NCBI GenBank assembly: GCA_013151415.1
Contig: JAADII010000097.1
Location: 1-39,532, forward strand
Source: Chloroflexota bacterium
GTDB lineage: Bacteria > Chloroflexota > Anaerolineae > J102
Direction of reading: 5' to 3'
Length of the DNA stretch: 39,532 nucleotides
Made by a program: the position numbers and the translations under genes. The notes below the pieces were generated by a model that was not told where the DNA came from, searched no databases, and saw only the letters and a program-made list of their open reading frames with translations. Shown here piece after piece: positions 11,691 to 21,792 of the stretch (position 1 is its first letter; each line of letters starts with the position of its first letter).

Positions 11691-11709
11691 GATGAAAAAG
11701 GAGGTTGTC

Positions 11710-12846
11710 ATGAAACGTTTTCTCGCACTTAATCTTTTTGCCTTTGCGCTCCTGGCCCTTAGCGCTTGTGGCGGGCGATCCGCCGACATTGTTGGCGCGG
11801 TGCAACCCACCATCGATGCAGCCGTCGCGGCCACGGTCACCGCGCAGGTCGCGATGCAGGGCGCCATCGACGCCGCGGTGGCCGCGACCGTCGAAGCGCA
11901 GAACGTCTCGGATGCGGCCGATCTCGCGCCCACCGCCACGCCAGCGCCAACATCCACCCCCATTCCCGCAGCCACGGCCTCGGTCGAATATGTGACCCTG
12001 ACCGAAGAGGAGCTGGCCGCGCTAATCGACGAGGCCGTTAGCGAGGCCGTGACCGCTTCGGAAAACGCGGCCGATGCGGCCGATAATGCCACCGACGACG
12101 GTGATGTGAACGCGGACGAGGTGGAAACCATCGAAGTCTATGTTCATTTGAGCGAAGAGACCATCGCCTATGCCGAAGCGCTTATCGATGCATATCAAGA
12201 GCAATATGGCGACGTCGCGGATGAATTCCTGGCCGTGTTGATGGCCATCGAAGAGGATTTGGCGGAGCTGGCCCAAAACACCGCGGCCATCGCTCAGTCG
12301 TTGGACGAAATCAGCCGCGCGTTGGAGCAAGGGCTGGCTTTGGCCGAAGAGAGCGTGGCCCAGCTGGAAGACGCCGCGGCTCAGACCACCGCGACCGTTG
12401 AACAACTTCAACAACAGGCCCAGGCCTGGCAGCGCGCGATGTTGGTTCAGTTGCAGCAACGCGACGCAGCGCAAAGCCAGGCGTCGGCCCCGAGTGAAGA
12501 CGCGCTTTCCCTTTTCCAACCCACCGAAGTGGCGTCCGACCCCGCCGCGGCCCTGCGCAGCGCCTGGGCTTACGCCAACATGGCGCAGAACGCGCTGGCC
12601 GATGGCGTTATTAGTCCCGATGAGCTCAACGCCATTGCTCAAGCCGGAGTCAATGCTTCGGCGGGGCTCAAGGCGCATGGCGGCCCGGGAATGCAAGACG
12701 CGGCCGCTCAGATCGAGCAACTCACGCGGCAATTGGCCGATGGCCAATTCGATCAGGCCCTGCGTTCATTGCAACAGCTGCAAGCCGGCCTGCCCTCTCT
12801 TCCCGCGGGATCCGGCGCGCCCGGCCGCGGCAAACGCGGCAAATAA
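11710..12846 (+). CDS. Coiled-coil lipoprotein of unknown function
   Basis: 378 residues from ATG 11710, preceded by AAAAAGGAGG with a 5-base gap. It has a lipoprotein signal peptide (MKRFLALNLFAFALLALSAC) with lipobox LSAC, so it should be anchored outside the membrane. Next come two copies of an IDAAVAATVxAQ segment (~residues 32-62), an Ala/Pro/Thr linker, an acidic Ala-rich stretch, and a long coiled coil (~140-260) rich in Gln, Glu and Ala. A helical region follows, containing DGVISPDELNAIAQAG, which resembles an EF-hand-like loop only superficially. The C terminus is basic (GRGKRGK). The TAA stop overlaps the AAGGAGG of the next gene, so the two are translationally linked. No known family is recognised; a periplasmic/cell-surface scaffold is plausible. 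Confidence 0.75.
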   Translation: MKRFLALNLFAFALLALSACGGRSADIVGAVQPTIDAAVAATVTAQVAMQGAIDAAVAATVEAQNVSDAADLAPTATPAPTSTPIPAATASVEYVTLTEEELAALIDEAVSEAVTASENAADAADNATDDGDVNADEVETIEVYVHLSEETIAYAEALIDAYQEQYGDVADEFLAVLMAIEEDLAELAQNTAAIAQSLDEISRALEQGLALAEESVAQLEDAAAQTTATVEQLQQQAQAWQRAMLVQLQQRDAAQSQASAPSEDALSLFQPTEVASDPAAALRSAWAYANMAQNALADGVISPDELNAIAQAGVNASAGLKAHGGPGMQDAAAQIEQLTRQLADGQFDQALRSLQQLQAGLPSLPAGSGAPGRGKRGK

Positions 12847-12857
12847 GGAGGCGTGCT

Positions 12858-14120
12858 GTGAGTCAATCCAATGCATTTGCACATAACATTTATCGCCGAG
12901 GAAAAAACTTGTTTTCAAATGGAGCCTTGCCGAATTGGAAGGACGCCCGACAGCCCTGCAAACGAGTGTTTCTCTCCTTCGCCGTCTTTCTGTTTCTTGC
13001 TTTGGGCGTCATCGGTTTTTTGCCCAATACACAGGTTCTGGCCTGGTCGGAGGAAAGTCTTGACTATTTCGATCCCCTGGATTCGCGTTCTTTGGATGAG
13101 CGGGACTATGTTTCGCCCAATGTGAGCAGCATTCATTTCGATCTGGTGGGCGCGTTGGCCATCGCGGCCGGGTTTGATGTGACGGACGCGGCCATCATCC
13201 AGGCCTATTCCGAGGCCACAGACGCGGGCCCCTTGCCCGAGGAGAATCCGGTCTACACCTTTGATGCAGATCCCGCCAACTACCCCGAGGCGCCGCCCAT
13301 CACCCATGTATCGCGCAGCGAGATATGCCCTTCGCCCGAAACCACCGCGCCCACCGTGACCATGGGATCCGCCAATTTTGATATGATGGAGTGCCCCGGA
13401 TGCTTCACCGACCGTTTTGGTCCATACGGCGTCTTCTTTCATATGCCGCACAACAGCGCGGACGAGCTGGTCGCAATCCATGATTGGGCCTGGGGCCTGA
13501 CCAACACCTTATTGGGCAAAGTCACCTTTGGTTATAGTTCCACAGCCCAATTCGACTGGCAGGGAACAGCCAATGTCTATGAAACGACGCCTTGTTTTGT
13601 GCAAGAATATCATGTTGTGGACACAGGAAGCATCGAGCCGGGCAGCCTTCAGGCTTTGGGAATTTATCTCCATTCACTGGGCGATTCTTGGTCACACAAC
13701 GATTGCCTTGCGGCCGCGGATGCGCTCGATCTGCCCTTTGCCGCGCATGTGACCGTCACCGGAGCGACCGACCCGTTATGGGATTGCCGCTGGACCCATC
13801 ACACCGTCGAATTCGGCGATGCAACGCGTTTTCCCGATAGCAGCCGCACCTTCAGCGGCGTGATCGCCCTTTATGAGGCGTTGATCGATTTCGCACAGCA
13901 AAGCGAGCGCCCCATATACCGTCCCATTCCCCTCACAGCCGAGGAAAATCGCATTTACGACGCGCTGGATGCATTCGTGCATGCATCCACGTTCTTGCGG
14001 CCCGGCCCCCGTCGCGTCATCGCCGATGAGCTGCGCCGGTGGGCGCAGGAAACCCGTGAGACCAACCCTCTCTACGCACGCGAGCGCGTATTTTTGCCAC
14101 TGTTTTCTCTTCATAACTAA
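12858..14120 (+). CDS. Exported His-rich putative metallohydrolase (phospholipase C-like fold?)
   Basis: 420 residues from GTG 12858, preceded by AAGGAGG with a 6-base gap. A hydrophobic segment (RVFLSFAVFLFLALGVIGFLP, ~35-55) after a basic N terminus acts as a signal or membrane anchor. The mature part contains regularly placed histidines: SSIHFDLVGALAIAAGF, VFFHMPHNSADELVAIHDWAWG, GIYLHSLGDSWSHNDC and CRWTHHTVEFGD. The core HxxxDxxxH pattern (HSLGDSWSH) and the His near the N terminus of the domain recall zinc-dependent phospholipase C and related DUF6765-type proteins. Several cysteines (CPSPE, MMECPGCF, TPCF, NDC, WDC) may form disulfides. It is the middle gene between the lipoprotein (11 bases upstream) and a P450 (4 bases downstream). 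Fold assignment is tentative; substrate unknown. Confidence 0.7.
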   Translation: MSQSNAFAHNIYRRGKNLFSNGALPNWKDARQPCKRVFLSFAVFLFLALGVIGFLPNTQVLAWSEESLDYFDPLDSRSLDERDYVSPNVSSIHFDLVGALAIAAGFDVTDAAIIQAYSEATDAGPLPEENPVYTFDADPANYPEAPPITHVSRSEICPSPETTAPTVTMGSANFDMMECPGCFTDRFGPYGVFFHMPHNSADELVAIHDWAWGLTNTLLGKVTFGYSSTAQFDWQGTANVYETTPCFVQEYHVVDTGSIEPGSLQALGIYLHSLGDSWSHNDCLAAADALDLPFAAHVTVTGATDPLWDCRWTHHTVEFGDATRFPDSSRTFSGVIALYEALIDFAQQSERPIYRPIPLTAEENRIYDALDAFVHASTFLRPGPRRVIADELRRWAQETRETNPLYARERVFLPLFSLHN

Positions 14121-14124
14121 CGTC

Positions 14125-15537
14125 ATGATGGATTCCATCTGCCATCCTAAAGAACAAACACCCCTCCAAGCGCCTTCGTCCTCGGCCACCCGGAGGCCGC
14201 CAGGCCCTCCGCGCGGCATCCCTGGCCGACATTTGTTTGCATTTCGCCGCGATCCCCTTTGTTACTTGCAGCAAATGGCGTCGACCTACGGCGATATCGT
14301 GCATTTGCCCTTTGGCCGACGACCGGTTTTTTTCTTCAATCATCCCGACTTCATTCGTGAAATTCTGGTGACTCGGCATCGCAGTTTTGGCAAAGGCCAA
14401 TGGTCACAACTCGGACGGTTGGTTTTGGGTGATGGATTGCTTACATCCGAAGGCGCGCTTCATGCGCGCGGCCGACGCCTGCTCAAAGCTGCGTTTGATC
14501 GCGCGTATCTGGCCGGCTATGCTCAGAGCATGGTGAACGAGGCCGCGCGCTGGGCCGAACAATGGCCTCATGGAAGCGAAATGGATATGGCCCAAGAAAT
14601 GGCCAGGCTCACCCTGCTGATTGCAGGCAATGCATTTTTGGGCGTGGACCTGCGTTCGGATCTGGATGCGATTCAACAGGCGTTGGAAGATCTGTTATCA
14701 CTCTTTGATCCCTTGCTCCCGCCCCTGATCGAGTTGGCGCCCTGGTTGTCGTTGCCTTCGCCGCGACGTTTGCATCAGGCGCAAGCGCAGTTGAACGCGG
14801 TTGTCGAGCGCACGGTGCAATCGCATCGCCAAAACAGCGCCTGCAAAGATCTGTTGTCTCTGCTCATTGCCGGCCAGGCGAAAGGTGAATGCACGCTCGA
14901 CGAGGATGCGGTGTGCAGCCATGCGCTAACCATCCTCTTGGCCGGGCACGAAACCATGGCCAGCGCATTGACCTGGACGTGGTGGCTGCTTTCCCAGCAT
15001 CCGCGCGTCGAGGCGCGGCTTCAGGCCGAATTGGATGCGGTGCTGGATGGCTATTTACCCGGTCCCGATGCGTTGCCCTATTTGCGCTATACGCGGATGG
15101 TGTTGGCCGAGGCGTTGCGTCTCTATCCTCCCATTTGGTTGATTGCTCGCGAGGCCGTTGAGGACGTGGTCATCGGTGGCTATGGCGTCCCGGCCGGAGC
15201 CACCGTGCTTGTTAGTCAATGGGTGATGCATCGAGATCCGCGCTATTATCCTGTGCCCGACGCGTTTCAGCCAGTGCGTTGGAAATCGGGCGGGCCGGAC
15301 GTCCGGCCTCAATACGCCTATTTCCCCTTTGGCGGCGGCCCTCGCGCTTGCATAGGCGCGCCATTCGCCTGGACCGAGGGCGTTTTATTGCTGGCCACGA
15401 TTGCTCAACGCCGGCGTTTTCGAATGATGTCGGACCAGGCTGTGGTTCCGGACCCGCGCGTCACCCTTCGCCCGCGCGGGGGGCTTGCCATGCGCGTGGA
15501 GGAAAGAGCGAGGGGCCGAAGGCCGCGAGAGGGTTGA
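14125..15537 (+). CDS. Cytochrome P450
   Basis: 470 residues from ATG 14125 (ATG 14128 equally possible), 4 bases after the previous stop. P450s insert one oxygen atom into an organic substrate using haem and electrons from a redox partner. Diagnostic motifs: I-helix AGHET (273-277), K-helix EALR (329-332, ExxR), and the haem loop FPFGGGPRACIGAPFA with the thiolate ligand Cys409. The N terminus has the proline-rich RRPPGPPRGIPG typical of membrane-type (eukaryote-like, CYP102/CYP110-like) P450s but no membrane helix, so it is probably soluble. No ferredoxin or reductase gene is nearby. Its position directly behind an exported hydrolase suggests a joint pathway on a lipid-like substrate (inference). 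The last ~15 residues are Arg-rich. Confidence 0.95.
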   Translation: MMDSICHPKEQTPLQAPSSSATRRPPGPPRGIPGRHLFAFRRDPLCYLQQMASTYGDIVHLPFGRRPVFFFNHPDFIREILVTRHRSFGKGQWSQLGRLVLGDGLLTSEGALHARGRRLLKAAFDRAYLAGYAQSMVNEAARWAEQWPHGSEMDMAQEMARLTLLIAGNAFLGVDLRSDLDAIQQALEDLLSLFDPLLPPLIELAPWLSLPSPRRLHQAQAQLNAVVERTVQSHRQNSACKDLLSLLIAGQAKGECTLDEDAVCSHALTILLAGHETMASALTWTWWLLSQHPRVEARLQAELDAVLDGYLPGPDALPYLRYTRMVLAEALRLYPPIWLIAREAVEDVVIGGYGVPAGATVLVSQWVMHRDPRYYPVPDAFQPVRWKSGGPDVRPQYAYFPFGGGPRACIGAPFAWTEGVLLLATIAQRRRFRMMSDQAVVPDPRVTLRPRGGLAMRVEERARGRRPREG

Positions 15538-15603: not shown

Positions 15604-16677
15604 TTATTCGCGCAACACGACCACCGCGTCCTCTGCGATGTCGAGGGCTATCTTCGCGCCGGGCGCGCGAATGGGGAAGAGCCCGGGCAGTTCGAATTCG
15701 AGCCTGAGCTCTTGGCCGGGCGGTTGCAGTTGGAGCACGGTGTGCGCGCCGCGGAAGGAGTTGAGAATCAGGCGCAGATGCACGCGGTTTTTGGCCGGCG
15801 CGGGGTTGGTCGCGGGGGTTGCGCCTTCGGGGCGGATGACGATTTGCACCCGTTCGCCTTCGCGTAGTCCTTCGGGCGCGCGCGCGGCGCGCAAAGGGCC
15901 CAGCGGCGTCTCCAATAGTGGGGCGGTCCCGCTTTTCAGCACTCGCGCCGAAAGGATGTTTTTGAAACCGAGGAAACGGGCCGCGAAGCGCGTGGCCGGT
16001 TGCAGATAAAGCTGGGCCGGGGGGGCCTCCTGCTCCACGCGGCCGCGGTTCATTAGGGCCACGCGGTCGGCGATGGCGAAGGCTTCCTCCTGATCGTGCG
16101 TGACATAAAGCGCGGTTTGATTCAAAGATTGCAACAGTTGCCGCAGCTCGGTGAGCAATTGGTCTCGTAGCAAACGATCCAACGAACCCAGGGGCTCATC
16201 CAGCATGAGCAGGCGGGGCTTGGGCGCCAGGCTGCGGGCCAAGGCCACCCGCTGTTGCTGACCGCCGCTCAACTCGAAGACCTTGCGATGTTCGAACCCA
16301 ACCAGATCCACCAGCGCCAACAGTTCGTCCACTCGCGCCTGTATGGCTTCGCGCGACCAACGTTGCATTTTCAGGCCGAAGGCGATGTTGTCGGCCACGC
16401 TCATGTGTGGGAAGAGCACATAATCCTGAAACATGAGACCAAACCCGCGACGATGCGGAGGCGTATGCGTGATGTCTTGGCCTTCGAGCCAGATTTGACC
16501 CTGGTCAGGCGTTTCCAGCCCGGCCACAATGCGCAAAAGGGTGGTTTTTCCGCATCCACTTGGCCCAAGCAGACATAAGACTTCGCCCTCTTCAAGACCC
16601 AAATCCACGCCATCCAGCGCCGCCACATGGCCGAATGTCTTGCGAATACGAGAGAGAATAAGCATGGGTTTTTCCAT
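15604..16677 (-). CDS. thiQ: ABC transporter ATP-binding protein, thiamine/iron type
   Basis: 357 residues from ATG 16677 (MLIL at 16665 also possible). The nucleotide-binding domain has Walker A LGPSGCGKTT, Q-loop MFQDYVLFPHM, signature LSGGQQQRVALARSL, Walker B LLMLDEP and the switch His in YVTHDQEEA. The C-terminal ~120 residues are a TOBE-type domain, making it longer than Escherichia coli ThiQ (~230) and more like FbpC/PotA. It energises the permease ThiP; the start overlaps the permease stop by one base (TAATG). Thiamine as substrate is inferred from the ThiB-like protein and the upstream riboswitch/kinase gene. It converges on the P450 gene with a 66-base gap. Confidence 0.85.
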   Translation of the reverse strand: MEKPMLILSRIRKTFGHVAALDGVDLGLEEGEVLCLLGPSGCGKTTLLRIVAGLETPDQGQIWLEGQDITHTPPHRRGFGLMFQDYVLFPHMSVADNIAFGLKMQRWSREAIQARVDELLALVDLVGFEHRKVFELSGGQQQRVALARSLAPKPRLLMLDEPLGSLDRLLRDQLLTELRQLLQSLNQTALYVTHDQEEAFAIADRVALMNRGRVEQEAPPAQLYLQPATRFAARFLGFKNILSARVLKSGTAPLLETPLGPLRAARAPEGLREGERVQIVIRPEGATPATNPAPAKNRVHLRLILNSFRGAHTVLQLQPPGQELRLEFELPGLFPIRAPGAKIALDIAEDAVVVLRE

Positions 16678-18338
16678 TAAAATTCGCCAATATCGCCATA
16701 TCGCAAATGCTCGATGCCCAGAAAGCCCATCGCGGTGGTGAACATAAGGATCACGCTAAGCGCGAGGGCTTGCCCGTAATTGATGAGACCCGGTTGGCCC
16801 AAGAAACGGTAGATGGCGATGGGCAGGGTGGGAAACTGCGGACGCGCCACCAACAGGCTGGCGCCAAACTCGCCCATGCTGATGGTGAACGCGAACACCA
16901 CGCCAACCAACAACGCCCGACCGACGATGGGAAGGTCGACATAACGTCGCACCTGCCAGGGCCGCGCGCCCAACACCGAGGCCGCGTCGCGCAGCCGCGG
17001 GTTGAGCCCTCGCAAAATGGGCAATAGCGAGCGCACCACGAACGGAAAGGCGATGAGCGTGTGGGTGATGGGAATGATGAGCAAATGGCCGCGCAGGTTC
17101 AAGGGTGGTTCGTCCAGCGCGATGAGGATGCCGAACCCCAGGGTGACCGCGCTCGCGCCCAGTGGCAGCATGAAAATGGGATCGAGCGCGGCCGCCAGTT
17201 TCGAGCCGCCTCCCTTGTTTTCGGCCAGGAGATAGGCGCTGCTCACACCCACAATGAGCGAGAGCGCAACCGTGGCCGCGGCAAAGGCCAGCGAATTACG
17301 CACAGCCTCGATGGGCGTAACGAAGAAGACCGAGCCGGTGCGATTGACGAAGAGCGCCCGGTAAAATTGCAGCCCCATCTCATCGCCCAAGGTGAACGAG
17401 CGCAAAACCAGCGCCAACAGGGGCGCGAGCAAAAACAGGGCCAAAGCGGCCAATGCGCCAAACACGAAGAGTCGTTCGGGCCAGGTGCGCGGCGGGCGTT
17501 CGGTCGATTGACGGGGTCGAAATTCCAGGGGAACCGCGGCTCGCGCCTGCAATCGCGTGTAGACCACCATCAGCGCGAACGTGAATAGAAGCTGGATAAT
17601 GGCCAGGGCCGCGGCCAGGGGCAGGTTGAATAGGCGCATCGCTGTGCGATAGATTTCCACTTCGATGGTGGCGAATCCGGGGCCGCCCAAAATGAGAATG
17701 ACGCCAAAGGAGGTGAAATTGAAAAGGTAGACCAACGCGCCCGCGGCCAGGATGGCCGGCATGAGCAGCGGCGCAGTAACATAGCGGAAGCGAGACCACG
17801 GCCCCGCGCCCAACACAGCCGCAGCGCCCCCCAAACGCGGGTCGAGGTTGGCCCAAAACCCGCCCACCAGACGCACCACGACCGATGTGTTGTAAAATAC
17901 ATGCGCCAGCAAAATGATCCAGATGGTGCGCATGAGATTGATGCGCGGGCCATCCAACGCGGCCATAATTTCGTTGAGCAGGCCGCGTGGCCCCAGCAGC
18001 GCGGTGAAGGCTGTGGCCACCACCACGGTGGGCAACACAAAGGGCAGGGTGGTGAAGGCGCGCATTAGGGTCTTGCCAGGAAAACGAAAGCGGGCGAAGA
18101 TGAAGGCCGCGGGCAAGCCCAAAAGAAATGCGCCCAGCGTGCTCGCGGCCGCCTGCCAAATGGTGAACCATAACACATGCGCGTAGTAAGGTTTTTCGAG
18201 CAGAGGACGCAAAGCCTCGCTCGCGAAGCGTCCCTGGGGAAAGAGGCTAAGCTGAAATATTGCGGCCAGCGGATAAAAGAAAAACAGGCCCAGGAAAGCC
18301 AAGGGAATCATGGCCAGGGCGAGTCGCGCGCTTCTCAT
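16677..18338 (-). CDS. thiP: Fused ABC permease, ThiP-like
   Basis: 553 residues from ATG 18338, about 12 membrane helices in two similar halves, as in ThiP and FbpB where two BPD_transp_1 domains are joined. First half: MIPLAFLGLFFFYPLAAIF, LPFVLPTVVVATAFTALLG and the EAA-like loop DPRLGGAAAVLGAGPWSRFR. Second half: LFLLAPLLALVLRSF, LMLPLGASAVTLGFGILIAL-type segments and the EAA-like loop NPRLRDAASVLGARPWQVRR. These loops contact the ATPase. The gene starts 3 bases after the methyltransferase stop and its own stop overlaps thiQ, so it is in the thiamine operon. Confidence 0.88.
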   Translation of the reverse strand: MRSARLALAMIPLAFLGLFFFYPLAAIFQLSLFPQGRFASEALRPLLEKPYYAHVLWFTIWQAAASTLGAFLLGLPAAFIFARFRFPGKTLMRAFTTLPFVLPTVVVATAFTALLGPRGLLNEIMAALDGPRINLMRTIWIILLAHVFYNTSVVVRLVGGFWANLDPRLGGAAAVLGAGPWSRFRYVTAPLLMPAILAAGALVYLFNFTSFGVILILGGPGFATIEVEIYRTAMRLFNLPLAAALAIIQLLFTFALMVVYTRLQARAAVPLEFRPRQSTERPPRTWPERLFVFGALAALALFLLAPLLALVLRSFTLGDEMGLQFYRALFVNRTGSVFFVTPIEAVRNSLAFAAATVALSLIVGVSSAYLLAENKGGGSKLAAALDPIFMLPLGASAVTLGFGILIALDEPPLNLRGHLLIIPITHTLIAFPFVVRSLLPILRGLNPRLRDAASVLGARPWQVRRYVDLPIVGRALLVGVVFAFTISMGEFGASLLVARPQFPTLPIAIYRFLGQPGLINYGQALALSVILMFTTAMGFLGIEHLRYGDIGEF

Positions 18339-18341
18339 GGC

Positions 18342-19280
18342 TCATTTTCTCGCAATGACGCGAATCACGTCGCTTTGCCCAAACGCGGCCGCGAACACGC
18401 CAAACACCCAACCCAAGATGAGCAAGAGATGCGAGCGGTTTGGGCCGCGTTTCAGACGATAGGCCACCGAATTGGCCGGGCCTACGCCGTTGGGGATGTG
18501 TTCCAGGCGCTCGACGCGAAAACCGGCCTCGATGACGGCCAGGCGCAGGCTGTGCGTTGTGAAATGGAGGCGATGGCGAGGCAGATCGAGATGATACCAA
18601 TAGCGCCCCATGAGACGGGCCGTCCAACCGCCCCAATTGGGTGTTTCGACCATGAGCAATCCGTTTGGCTTGAGGGCCGAGCGCACGCGTTTCAGCGCAG
18701 CCACCGGTTCGTCCAAATGCTCCAACACATGCCACATGGTGGCCGCGTTGTAGTGGGCGGGCGGTAGATCGACTTCCATAATTCCCCCCACTTTTACGTT
18801 CAGACCGGCTTCCTGGGCTCGTCGCGCAGCTTCCGCGTCCGGCTCTACGCCGTCCACTCGCCAACCCAAGCGGATGAGGCTGGCTCCATACGCGCCGCTG
18901 CCGCAGCCCACGTCGAGCAACCGACCGGGGGGCGGTGGCGGCGGCAGCCATGTCCAGCCGCGCACCCTGGCCAGCATCCGAGCGAGAAAACCGGGTAGGG
19001 CCGCGGCCTTCTCTTGCCGATACCCCATGGTCTTGAGCATGGACGCGGCCAATTGGCCGCGCCATCCCCGAGCAGGGCGGCCTTGCAAATGGTAGCAGGC
19101 GTAATGGGCCGGATAGGCCGCCGCCAGCTCGCTTGCTGTCAATGGCGGCCGCGTATGGCCCAAGCCGCACCTATCGCACGCCCACACCTCATATTCCTCT
19201 GTCCGCCCCAAGTGAAAATCGGGCGCGGCCAGGGCGGGATGAATCCGGTGGGAGCGGCAGAGCGGACAGGTGGAGGACAC
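18342..19280 (-). CDS. Zinc-ribbon class I SAM methyltransferase inserted in the thi operon
   Basis: 312 residues, GTG 19280 start; no ribosome binding site is visible and the start lies inside a repeat array. The N terminus has a CxxC...CxxC zinc ribbon (CPLC, CDRC) followed by GLGHTRPPLTASELAAAYP, as in C-methyltransferases and capsule or sugar methylating enzymes. The SAM-binding motif I is LLDVGCGSGAYG, then VDGVEPD, and post-motifs MWHVLEHLDEP and LKPNGLLMVETPN. A hydrophobic segment near the C terminus (SHLLLILGWVFGVFAAAF) could anchor it. It lies between thiB and thiP, 3 bases from thiP, where no thiamine gene is normally found. Its first 142 bases overlap the extended end of thiB in another frame. 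Substrate unknown. Confidence 0.85.
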   Translation of the reverse strand: MSSTCPLCRSHRIHPALAAPDFHLGRTEEYEVWACDRCGLGHTRPPLTASELAAAYPAHYACYHLQGRPARGWRGQLAASMLKTMGYRQEKAAALPGFLARMLARVRGWTWLPPPPPPGRLLDVGCGSGAYGASLIRLGWRVDGVEPDAEAARRAQEAGLNVKVGGIMEVDLPPAHYNAATMWHVLEHLDEPVAALKRVRSALKPNGLLMVETPNWGGWTARLMGRYWYHLDLPRHRLHFTTHSLRLAVIEAGFRVERLEHIPNGVGPANSVAYRLKRGPNRSHLLLILGWVFGVFAAAFGQSDVIRVIARK

Positions 19281-20467
19281 GGGGGCGGGGGCGAGGTGGC
19301 GAGTGGGCGGGTGGCGGGTGGGCGAGGTGGCGAGTGGGCGAAGGGGCGGGTTTTCAGCAATGGCGTTCGTTCAGCGCAACCGTCCGTCCAGGCCTCGATC
19401 CAGGCTTCGCGATTTTTTGCGATGGCTTCGGGCGCAACATCGACCGGGCTTTCGGGAATCGACGCCCATTTCTGGAAAAGCTCGCCGATGTCGGCCTGGC
19501 TATTGGCCGGATAGACGAACATATGCAGGGGGATGTCTTCCTGGAATGCGGGACTGAGCATGAAGTCGATGAATTGACGCGCAGCGTCTTGATGGGGGCT
19601 ATTGGCCACCACGCCTACGAACTCGATTTGTTTGAAGCTGTTGCCGGCTGTGTTGACGCTGGCCGTGGGCGGTTTGGGCAATTCGTTGAAATAAACCTCG
19701 GCCACAGGGCTGGTTGCATAACTAACCACGATGGGGCGGTCGCCCTCGCCGCCCGAACCAACCGTGAACGCGCCCCAATAGGCTTCGCTCCAGCCGTCGG
19801 TGACCAGAACATCATTTTCGCGCATGGCCCGCCAGTAGTCCAAATAGGTGAAATCGCCCGCCTCGCCAAAGCGCCCCACCGTGAGCAAAAGGAACACCAG
19901 ACCGGGTGAAGAGGTGGCCGGATTCTCCACCACGGTCAGGCCTTTATAGGCTGGGTCGATGAGGTCTGTGATATCGTCGGGCGGCTCCAGGCCATTTTCC
20001 TCGAACCAGGCGATGTCGTAGTTGAGAGTGACAAAGCCATAATCCACCGGCAACAGGCGGTGTTCTGGGTCGAGCTCCAGTTCGTCGGGGATGTCGGCCA
20101 GAAGGGGGCTTTTATAAGCCGCGAACATCTCGGCCTCGAGCGCGCGGCTGAGGAAGGTGTTGTCGATGCCGAACACCACATCTCCCAGCGGGTTTTCTTT
20201 GGAAAGGATCAGCGTGTTCAGCATTTCGCCCGCGTCGCCGCTCTTGAGGATGTCGACCTCGATGCCGGTCTCGTCGCTGAATGCATTCATCACCTCTTCG
20301 CTAATGTCGAAGCTATCGTGGGTGACCAGGGTGATCTTGGCCGGCGCGGTCGCGGTGGTTGGCGTGGGTTCTGGGGCTGGCGGCGCGCAGGCGGCGAGGA
20401 GGAAAAGAGGAAGGAGGGAGAGGAGCAAGAAGAGGGAGGGAGGGAAGAGCAGGTTTTTTTGTTTCAT
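19139..20467 (-). CDS. thiB: Thiamine-binding lipoprotein (ThiB/TbpA-like) with read-through tail
   Basis: 442 residues from ATG 20467, with GAGG 6 bases ahead. Signal peptide MKQKNLLFPPSLFLLLSLL... ends in the lipobox LAAC, so it is a membrane-anchored binding protein of the ABC importer. Family blocks of TbpA are clear: LVTHDSFDISEEV, DVVFGIDNTFLSRAL, PVDYGFVTLNYDI, NPATSSPGLVFLLL, VTDGWSEAYWGAF, VSYATSPVAEVYF and FMLSPAFQEDIPLHMFVYP, ending in NREAWIEAWTD. Normal members stop about there (base ~19382). Here the frame continues 80 more residues, first Pro/Ala/Thr-rich sequence encoded by a repeat array, then the wrong frame of the methyltransferase gene. This tail is probably acquired and non-functional. 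Confidence 0.9.
   Translation of the reverse strand: MKQKNLLFPPSLFLLLSLLPLFLLAACAPPAPEPTPTTATAPAKITLVTHDSFDISEEVMNAFSDETGIEVDILKSGDAGEMLNTLILSKENPLGDVVFGIDNTFLSRALEAEMFAAYKSPLLADIPDELELDPEHRLLPVDYGFVTLNYDIAWFEENGLEPPDDITDLIDPAYKGLTVVENPATSSPGLVFLLLTVGRFGEAGDFTYLDYWRAMRENDVLVTDGWSEAYWGAFTVGSGGEGDRPIVVSYATSPVAEVYFNELPKPPTASVNTAGNSFKQIEFVGVVANSPHQDAARQFIDFMLSPAFQEDIPLHMFVYPANSQADIGELFQKWASIPESPVDVAPEAIAKNREAWIEAWTDGCAERTPLLKTRPFAHSPPRPPATRPLATSPPPPCPPPVRSAAPTGFIPPWPRPIFTWGGQRNMRCGRAIGAAWAIRGRH
19258..19350 (+). repeat. GC-rich degenerate 7-8-bp repeat array
   Basis: Read on + as GAGGTGGC, GAGTGGGC, GGGTGGC, GGGTGGGC, GAGGTGGC, GAGTGGGC, GAAGGGGC. A stretch of 21 bases (19289-19309) recurs exactly at 19320-19340, 31 bases on. 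The array straddles the thiB/methyltransferase junction, supplies the thiB tail and contains the methyltransferase start codon. Confidence 0.8.
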
Positions 20468-20760
20468 GGGGCGCCTCACTTTTTGTTGCGCGGACGATGG
20501 TTGGAATAATCGTCGGTTTTTGAGAAAAGCGGCGTTTTGCGGATGATATGAGCGTGATTTGCCGTGGGAATCACATGAAAACGATTTCATTGACATAAAG
20601 TTGCAAAAACGCCGTTTTGAGCCGATTTTTTGGCCGAAAGCTGGTTGTTTTGATGGCTGCAAGCGCTTTTAGAAAACGATTTCAAGACTTCGGGTCATCG
20701 TCCTCCCCTTCATCCGCATCGGCGCTGGCAAACCTGCCGTCGCCTGCTTCGAAAATAAGC
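20468..20760. promoter_or_regulatory. Upstream region of thiB with LacI-type operator-like repeats
   Basis: GAAAACGATTTCA occurs twice exactly (20577-20589 and 20672-20684). The first copy sits in ATGAAA-ACGA-TTTCAT, a perfect 6-bp inverted repeat with a central CG, the shape of LacI-family operators; a partial third copy is at ~20891-20903. TGCAAGCGCTTTTA (just before the second copy) also resembles such sites. GGCGTTTTGC (20531) and GCAAAAACGCC (20603) form a longer inverted repeat, and GTGATT/AATCAC (20554-20574) another. The region looks like a controlled second promoter in front of thiB, but I cannot place -10/-35 elements with confidence. Confidence 0.35.
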
Positions 20761-20886
20761 GTCCAATGTCCAATGTCCGATGTCGGTCGCACAGGCCTTG
20801 ATGAGCGCTCAGACCAACATAGACCATAGGACACATAGACCAAAAGGCTCATCGTCTATCTTCGTCTACTTTGGTCTACGTTGGTC
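20761..20886. repeat. Period-7 and period-10 repeat arrays in inverted arms
   Basis: GTCCAAT, GTCCAAT, GTCCGAT, GTCGGTC run in register at 20761-20788 (period 7). Then AGACCAACATAGACC (from 20811) faces its near-complement GGTCTACGTTGGTC (20873-20886). The right arm is period 10: CGTCTATCTT, CGTCTACTTT, GGTCTACGTT, GGTC. The whole lies between the kinase gene stop and thiB, so it would be transcribed as long imperfect hairpins. Confidence 0.75.
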
Positions 20887-20938
20887 GGCGCAAACGATTT
20901 TCATCTGTTTCGGCGTGCGTCTGCGCACTGTAGGTCTG

Positions 20939-21601
20939 CTATGATGGCGAAGAGAAAGGGCGTTTCGTCATCCGGTGAATGACCAGAAGGACGCCGCGAC
21001 GAAGGGAGATTTCGGCCTCGTTCGCGGTCATTTCGTTGCTGATGCCGTGCGTGCTGCCAAAGGGTAGGGTGAAATCGTTGAGCATCCAGCGCAGGCCGCG
21101 ATGATAAGTGAGGCCGATGACTTCGGGACTGAGCGCCAACGCCGAGACCGTGTCGCCCTTGCGGCCATGAATCACCAATCGTTCGCGTACGATCCAGGCT
21201 GTTTCCGGGCCTTCAACCAGGCGAATGCATAGATCGGCAAACTTGGGTGAGGCCATAAGGAGCACATTGGCCATTTGCTGGTCCAGCCGGCCGCCCAATG
21301 CAGCCAACACCACCGCTTCGTTCGCGCCCAAGCGCCGCGCGGCCAACAGCGCCAGCTCGAGATCGGTGGCGTCCTTGTCCACCGGGTGTCGTTCGATGCG
21401 CGCGCCGAACGCGTCTAATCGCTTTCTGTCCTCAACATTCAGGCTGTCCAGGTCGCCAACGACCAGATCGGGGATCAGGCCCAAGGCGAGCGCATGGCGC
21501 GCGCCTCCGTCCGCGCACAGAACGAGATCGTCCGGCTGCACCAACTCGCGGGCGCGGTCGGGGTGGGAAAGTTGGCCGTTGGCAAAAAGGATGGCGCGCA
21601 T
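20939..21601 (-). CDS. thiN: Thiamine pyrophosphokinase
   Basis: 220 residues from ATG 21601; the frame is open further upstream but only through repeat array and terminator. The enzyme converts thiamine and ATP to thiamine pyrophosphate in the cytoplasm. Family motifs: LCADGGARHAL, IPDLVVGDLDSL, HPVDKDATDLELAL (the DxDxTD motif), LAALGGRLDQQMANVLL, and the C-terminal thiamine-binding part VIGLTYHRGLRWML...FGSTHGISNE. It is the first gene after a TPP riboswitch and precedes the thiamine transporter genes, giving an import-and-phosphorylate pathway. A 338-base gap with repeats separates it from thiB on that side (471 bases to the thiB start). Confidence 0.94.
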   Translation of the reverse strand: MRAILFANGQLSHPDRARELVQPDDLVLCADGGARHALALGLIPDLVVGDLDSLNVEDRKRLDAFGARIERHPVDKDATDLELALLAARRLGANEAVVLAALGGRLDQQMANVLLMASPKFADLCIRLVEGPETAWIVRERLVIHGRKGDTVSALALSPEVIGLTYHRGLRWMLNDFTLPFGSTHGISNEMTANEAEISLRRGVLLVIHRMTKRPFSSPS

Positions 21602-21604
21602 GAG

Positions 21605-21740
21605 AGTGAGTGGGCGTCGAGTGTTAAGTGTCAGGTGTCGAGTGTCAGGTGTCAGGTTGCGGGTGGCGGGTGACGGGTCGCGGATCTTCGAAGACAAGAA
21701 CCCCAAAACCTTCAACCAGAAACCTTGACCTGAGAACCGT
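21605..21740. repeat. Heptameric repeat array pair between riboswitch terminator and thiN
   Basis: On + the units are AGTGTTA, AGTGTCA, GGTGTCG, AGTGTCA, GGTGTCA, GGTTGCG, GGTGGCG, GGTGACG, GGTCGCG. After ~20 bases the complementary sense appears: the - strand of 21690-21740 reads GGTTCTC, AGGTCAA, GGTTTCT, GGTTGAA, GGTTTTG. Both arms have period 7 and share a GGT core, in opposite orientation. The array forms most of the thiN leader after the terminator. Confidence 0.8.
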
Positions 21741-21746
21741 GAACAA

Positions 21747-21778
21747 CAAAAAACCACCGCCGGGTGGCCAGCAGTGGT
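21747..21778 (-). terminator. Intrinsic terminator of TPP riboswitch
   Basis: On the - strand ACCACTGCTGG, loop CCAC, CCGGCGGTGGT forms an 11-bp stem (two G-T pairs) followed by a run of T. It lies 15 bases downstream of the TPP aptamer and upstream of thiN, so it is the expression platform: TPP binding should favour this hairpin and stop transcription. Confidence 0.88.
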
Positions 21779-21792
21779 CATGCTTGCGTCGC

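Follow-up and report, generated by a model that had tools for sequence, protein, structure and literature searches.

What could hold together a lipoprotein, an exported histidine-rich protein and a cytochrome P450 as neighbouring genes? The question is raised by a 39,532-nucleotide stretch of DNA from a Chloroflexota bacterium (contig JAADII010000097.1 of assembly GCA_013151415.1), here called the window, which is contig C122 of a 4.5 Mb assembly with 197 contigs and 98% completeness. We find that the three genes form a genuine operon-like block whose distribution is limited. Two recurring associations make it up, one between a lipoprotein family and P450s and the other between DUF6765-like proteins and esterases, and the window trio lies at their junction. 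The explanation we prefer, tentatively and with slightly less than even confidence, is that a putative secreted metal phosphoesterase is combined with a lipoprotein and a P450 in an envelope-associated operon, so far seen in a single Chloroflexota family.

The three-gene block

The trio consists of three intact open reading frames on the same strand, separated by 11 and 4 bases, as an earlier note made from the sequence alone had read them. The genes and their translation signals, with positions in the window, are as follows.

11698-11704, forward strand: AAGGAGG Shine-Dalgarno sequence of the lipoprotein gene
11710-12846, forward strand: lipoprotein gene, 378 amino acids
12845-12851, forward strand: AAGGAGG Shine-Dalgarno sequence for the hydrolase, which overlaps the stop codon of the lipoprotein gene
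12858-14120, forward strand: middle-protein gene, encoding a secreted DUF6765-like putative metal-dependent hydrolase, 420 amino acids, GTG start
14125-15537, forward strand: cytochrome P450 gene, 470 amino acids, starting 4 bases past the hydrolase stop codon

Strong ribosome binding sites had been claimed for the whole unit. This holds for the first two genes, but inspection of the sequence upstream of the P450 gene found no Shine-Dalgarno site, and translation of the P450 would depend on coupling over the 4-base gap.

The middle protein has close orthologues (50-72% identity) in 11 genomes, counting the source genome and treating L025 and G068 as one. A second full trio is present in G008, a genome of another genus in the same family, where the three genes stand in identical order and overlap or nearly touch. 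No homologue of any other window gene was found at the G008 locus; since the surroundings are unrelated, the block has been kept together in a different context. A fourth gene of 709 amino acids follows the G008 trio and encodes a domain related to the middle protein fused to a carboxylesterase, and the source genome has a fused DUF6765-like/esterase paralogue of its own on contig C101. The earlier note had made its idea depend on conservation of the trio, which extends to this one further genome but not widely: neither partner lies near the close orthologue in nine of the 11 genomes, and wide conservation of the trio was rejected on that ground.

The middle protein

The N-terminus of the middle protein is a hydrophobic segment, followed by an ordered series of candidate metal ligands. 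Conservation and cleavage-site counts were taken from an alignment of 35 members of the family, about 10 hyd-type and 25 fusion-type, and the relevant positions are given below.

12858-13043, forward strand: residues 1-62, predicted to form a signal peptide that ends in V-L-A, with cleavage presumed before Trp63
13044-13046, forward strand: Trp63 codon, predicted mature N-terminal residue from the alignment, to be compared with the Trp of S1 nuclease and PC-PLC
13134-13136, forward strand: His93, candidate metal ligand, 35/35
13221-13223, forward strand: Asp122, candidate metal ligand, 35/35
13440-13451, forward strand: His195 and His198 (HMPH), candidate metal ligands, 35/35 and 33/35
13671-13697, forward strand: HxxxDxxxH motif, HSLGDSWSH, residues 272-280 (His272, Asp276 and His280), 35/35, 35/35 and 34/35
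13746-13811, forward strand: His297, His315 and Glu318, candidate metal ligands, 34/35 each

The residue at position -1 of the cleavage-like site is small in all 35 members, and the one at position -3 is small or aliphatic in 34 members, the remaining one having Pro. An aromatic residue, two before an invariant Glu-Glu, follows the site in every member (25 Phe, 9 Trp and 1 Tyr). Export of the middle protein, as proposed in the earlier note, is therefore supported, but its description as membrane-anchored is not, since a cleavage-like site in every aligned member makes a cleaved signal peptide more likely; a chiefly membrane-anchored protein was rejected for the same reason. The mature chain of S1 nuclease begins at Trp21 after signal cleavage, and the main chain of Trp21 ligates zinc (PMC5201275), while in a PC-PLC the third metal is ligated by the main chain of the N-terminal Trp (PMC10576769).

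The His, Asp and Glu residues of the candidate ligand set are 94-100% conserved, and D95 is likewise invariant. Their order matches the ligand order of the PLC/P1 superfamily, namely aromatic N-terminus, His, Asp, His, HxxxD, His, His and Glu, although the spacing differs. The middle protein resembles zinc PLC/P1 enzymes in its secretion, its predicted aromatic mature N-terminus and this ordered set, but differs from them in matching neither of their profiles, in its ligand spacing and in its greater length. The predicted aromatic mature N-terminus and the ordered candidate ligands together lend the strongest support to the zinc phospholipase C idea, and judging from these residues the middle protein may be PLC/P1-like in its working, although it is not classifiable as a member of the superfamily. 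The earlier note had spoken of HxxxDxxxH motifs reminiscent of that enzyme; conserved residues of this kind are present, but there is one such motif rather than several. Because a composition shuffle yields one HxxxDxxxH in 3% of trials, the motif alone is weak, and it is the conservation that counts.

By profile, the middle family lies closest to DUF6765 (PF20551), which 13 of 15 family members matched weakly (best 2.1e-5), around His93 and HxxxDxxxH. The window protein and the others inspected nevertheless score below the Pfam cut-off (22.4 vs 26.6 bits for the window protein), and no DUF6765 member above the cut-off was found in a set of 61 genomes or in 400 genomes sampled from the phylum. 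We found no paper on DUF6765, which has no known function, and no relatives in the viral contigs and plasmids searched. Several of the best local profile-profile alignments with PF00882 members land on HxxxDxxxH, and this motif also occurs in a PF00882 member of the class that scores over the cut-off (L088). Nearly all DUF6765-like proteins and domains end in a (Y/F/W)(L/I/V/W)P(L/V/A/I) tail (e.g., VFLPL, VYLPLV), found in the window at 14091-14105; a VFLPL-type tail is possibly a structural or surface-sorting element.

Two recurring associations and their surroundings

The first gene product was called a lipoprotein in the earlier note, and this reading is borne out by an LSAC lipobox whose Cys20 is invariant across 37 aligned homologues, as expected of a bacterial lipoprotein. 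The protein comprises a signal peptide with the lipobox (Cys20), TQATIDAAVAAT-type helical repeats, a Pro-rich linker, a coiled-coil region and a Pro/Gly tail with a basic end. The family has matches in 58 of the 396 genomes sampled from the class, ∼40 of them strong (at least 100 bits). The Pro/Gly-rich tail (window 12790-12843) is typical of the family, with terminal basic residues such as GRGK, GGRRP, PSRP and PRK.

A P450 stands beside the lipoprotein family in 10 of 44 loci, from five families of the class. In eight of them (families f38, f27, f35 and f21, two of the P450s being fragments) the two genes are immediate neighbours, and in the two trios a single gene separates them. The eight adjacent genes are the only P450s within 463 kb of flanking DNA. 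When compared with other Chloroflexota P450s, the six near-full-length adjacent P450s and both trio P450s form one group (support 97/96), and in a larger P450 sample, where the support is 84/92, one non-adjacent P450 joins them. The adjacent near-full-length P450s of other families retain every catalytic motif. That every P450 of the clade stands beside a lipoprotein was considered and rejected, since several high-scoring ones lie elsewhere. In four f38 genomes the P450 gene comes straight after the lipoprotein gene and there is no hydrolase. The pair is adjoined by genes for a HisKA_3 kinase and a NarL-type regulator in f38 genomes and in G190. This two-component pair is seen next to the lipoprotein-P450 genes at L114:8495-11553, at L118:10186-12932 and on L191. 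The G190 order would also fit G078, where the P450 and lipoprotein genes sit on separate contigs, each close to a contig end.

The window P450 matches the Pfam p450 profile (PF00067) over its full length at 1.5e-72 and contains AGHET, ExxR (EALR) and the FxxGxxxCxG loop, so that the intact enzyme described in the earlier note is confirmed by both motifs and profile. The haem-binding loop is located as follows.

15322-15357, forward strand: P450 haem-binding loop FPFGGGPRACIG, containing Cys409

The nearest NCBIfam families are albaflavenone monooxygenase and pentalenene oxygenase, and the nearest structures are 7wzl and 3dbg; at 249 vs 700 bits the protein is far under the equivalog cut-offs, and its substrate is therefore not inferable. 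What sets it apart from other bacterial P450s is its genetic linkage to a lipoprotein. The homologue in the G008 trio (L014:13627-14880) has an uninterrupted 418-amino-acid frame, retains a P450 profile match (2.8e-46) and sits on a longer tree branch. It carries FPCGNEAHVGMG in place of the haem loop, without the ligand Cys, and AAYEA instead of AGHET, without the acid-alcohol pair, and its C-helix is deleted. The G008 gene is a pseudoenzyme, a decaying gene or an assembly error. It is similar to EryCII-type activators (TIGR04515) in being a P450 homologue without the haem Cys, whereas the window P450 keeps this Cys and scores 53 against the 343-bit cut-off of that family. No glycosyltransferase was found among the immediate cluster neighbours.

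In the second association, DUF6765-like and alpha/beta-hydrolase domains are fused in many genomes, and are split but adjacent in L018 and L082. In G075, a lipoprotein alpha/beta-hydrolase gene (L072:427-1314) lies directly upstream of the DUF6765-like orthologue. The G008 fourth gene and the C101 paralogue resemble BD-FAE/carboxylesterase proteins (PF20434, PF00135) in carrying that domain with an intact GHSAGGH nucleophile, but differ in that the domain is fused behind a DUF6765-like domain. The lipoprotein gene itself also precedes DUF6765-like genes without a P450. This is the arrangement in G374, and in G162 the lipoprotein is followed by a DUF6765-esterase fusion (L110:5046-6335) in which the DUF6765 part is mostly deleted and the signal region and esterase are kept. 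The G162 lipoprotein is sister to that of G008 despite the different families of the two genomes, which suggests transfer.

The neighbours of the window trio are unrelated to it: a divergent M32 carboxypeptidase gene lies upstream, and downstream there is an ABC-transporter gene set in convergent orientation. The latter (window 15604-21781, minus strand) encodes an ABC transporter ATPase, a double permease, a solute-binding protein, a methyltransferase and a thiamin pyrophosphokinase, and likely serves thiamine uptake and activation. Elsewhere in the window, an open reading frame at 944-2482 has a weak HisKA match and a C-terminal winged-helix (Trans_reg_C) DNA-binding domain.

Explanations for the trio

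If the trio is an envelope-associated operon with a secreted phosphoesterase, the middle protein would most likely be exported and lose its signal peptide just before Trp63, and would then fold round a metal cluster with the new N-terminus and the conserved His, Asp and Glu residues as ligands. Like zinc PLC/P1-type enzymes, it would act extracellularly, hydrolysing a phosphoester or a substrate akin to a phospholipid, while the lipoprotein would probably tether or organise this activity at the membrane surface. The cytosolic P450 of the source genome would oxidise a hydrophobic compound that may be related to the product released. Such a shared pathway, with a substrate released outside and oxidised inside, was suggested by the earlier note; it is still an inference, and the haem-less G008 P450 argues against it as a general rule. 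The literature search found no paper on such a gene set or on a described pathway, in line with the earlier note's remark that it knew of none.

Several results weigh against this explanation. The full trio is known in two genomes only, the partners are mostly missing from the vicinity of close middle-protein orthologues, and in one of the two trios the P450 has lost its haem Cys, acid-alcohol pair and C-helix. PF00882 was not matched by the window protein or by 14 homologues, PF02265 had no Pfam match to the middle protein and none in its genome, and six PF00882 members from the class, compared profile to profile, gave a probability of <1%. A PDB sequence search with the middle protein and its profile matched no chain, and AlphaFold models of the protein alone and with one relative were uninterpretable with respect to the all-helical, three-metal fold of the PLC/P1 superfamily (mean predicted local distance difference test scores of 36 and 32). 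These failed searches, together with the 3% shuffle frequency of a single HxxxDxxxH and a nearest named family that has neither a known function nor a paper, raise the alternative that the middle protein does something other than phosphoester hydrolysis, its His/Asp cluster serving other hydrolysis or metal storage and its likeness to zinc phospholipase C being superficial. We consider this improbable, because the number, order and conservation of the ligands and the invariant aromatic residue after the cleavage-like site fit a specific known metal-site design.

A possible but, in our view, doubtful alternative is that two independent modules share one transcript, with the lipoprotein and P450 forming a unit for oxidation or sensing linked to the envelope, and the hydrolase inserted as a passenger between them in one family, without a common substrate. 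The four f38 genomes with the lipoprotein-P450 pair and no hydrolase are consistent with this, as are the HisKA_3 and NarL genes adjoining the pair there and in G190 and the solitary hydrolase in most genomes. However, the lipoprotein also pairs with DUF6765-like genes without a P450 (G374 and the remnant in G162) and so is linked to both partners, and the coupled or overlapping genes in G008 also speak against independence. The G008 P450 gene itself, with an uninterrupted 418-amino-acid frame despite FPCGNEAHVGMG, AAYEA, the loss of the C-helix and a longer branch, suggests that the P450-derived gene might be non-catalytic in at least part of the group, as a scaffold or partner or in decay, leaving the hydrolase and lipoprotein as the functional core. 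P450-like partner proteins are known, as in EryCII with its glycosyltransferase (PMC3391682), and provide a precedent. Nevertheless, the window P450 and the near-full-length adjacent P450s elsewhere keep all catalytic motifs, no glycosyltransferase is adjacent, and a single full-length dead copy was seen, in a draft assembly, which leaves this alternative quite improbable.

The envelope-associated operon with a secreted phosphoesterase remains our preferred explanation. An extension of it, which we regard as speculative and on the whole unlikely, is that a lipoprotein-linked P450 lineage of Chloroflexota envelopes was joined, in one family, by uncharacterised secreted metal hydrolases with a processed aromatic N-terminus, giving an operon that remodels surface lipids and in which a haem-less pseudoenzyme can stand in for the P450. 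Should the preferred explanation be right, a widespread secreted family near DUF6765 would gain a testable function, and a distinct set of P450s would be tied to a surface lipoprotein family, which would be unusual among P450s. With both an intact and a haem-less form of the operon at hand, it can be tested directly whether catalysis requires the P450.

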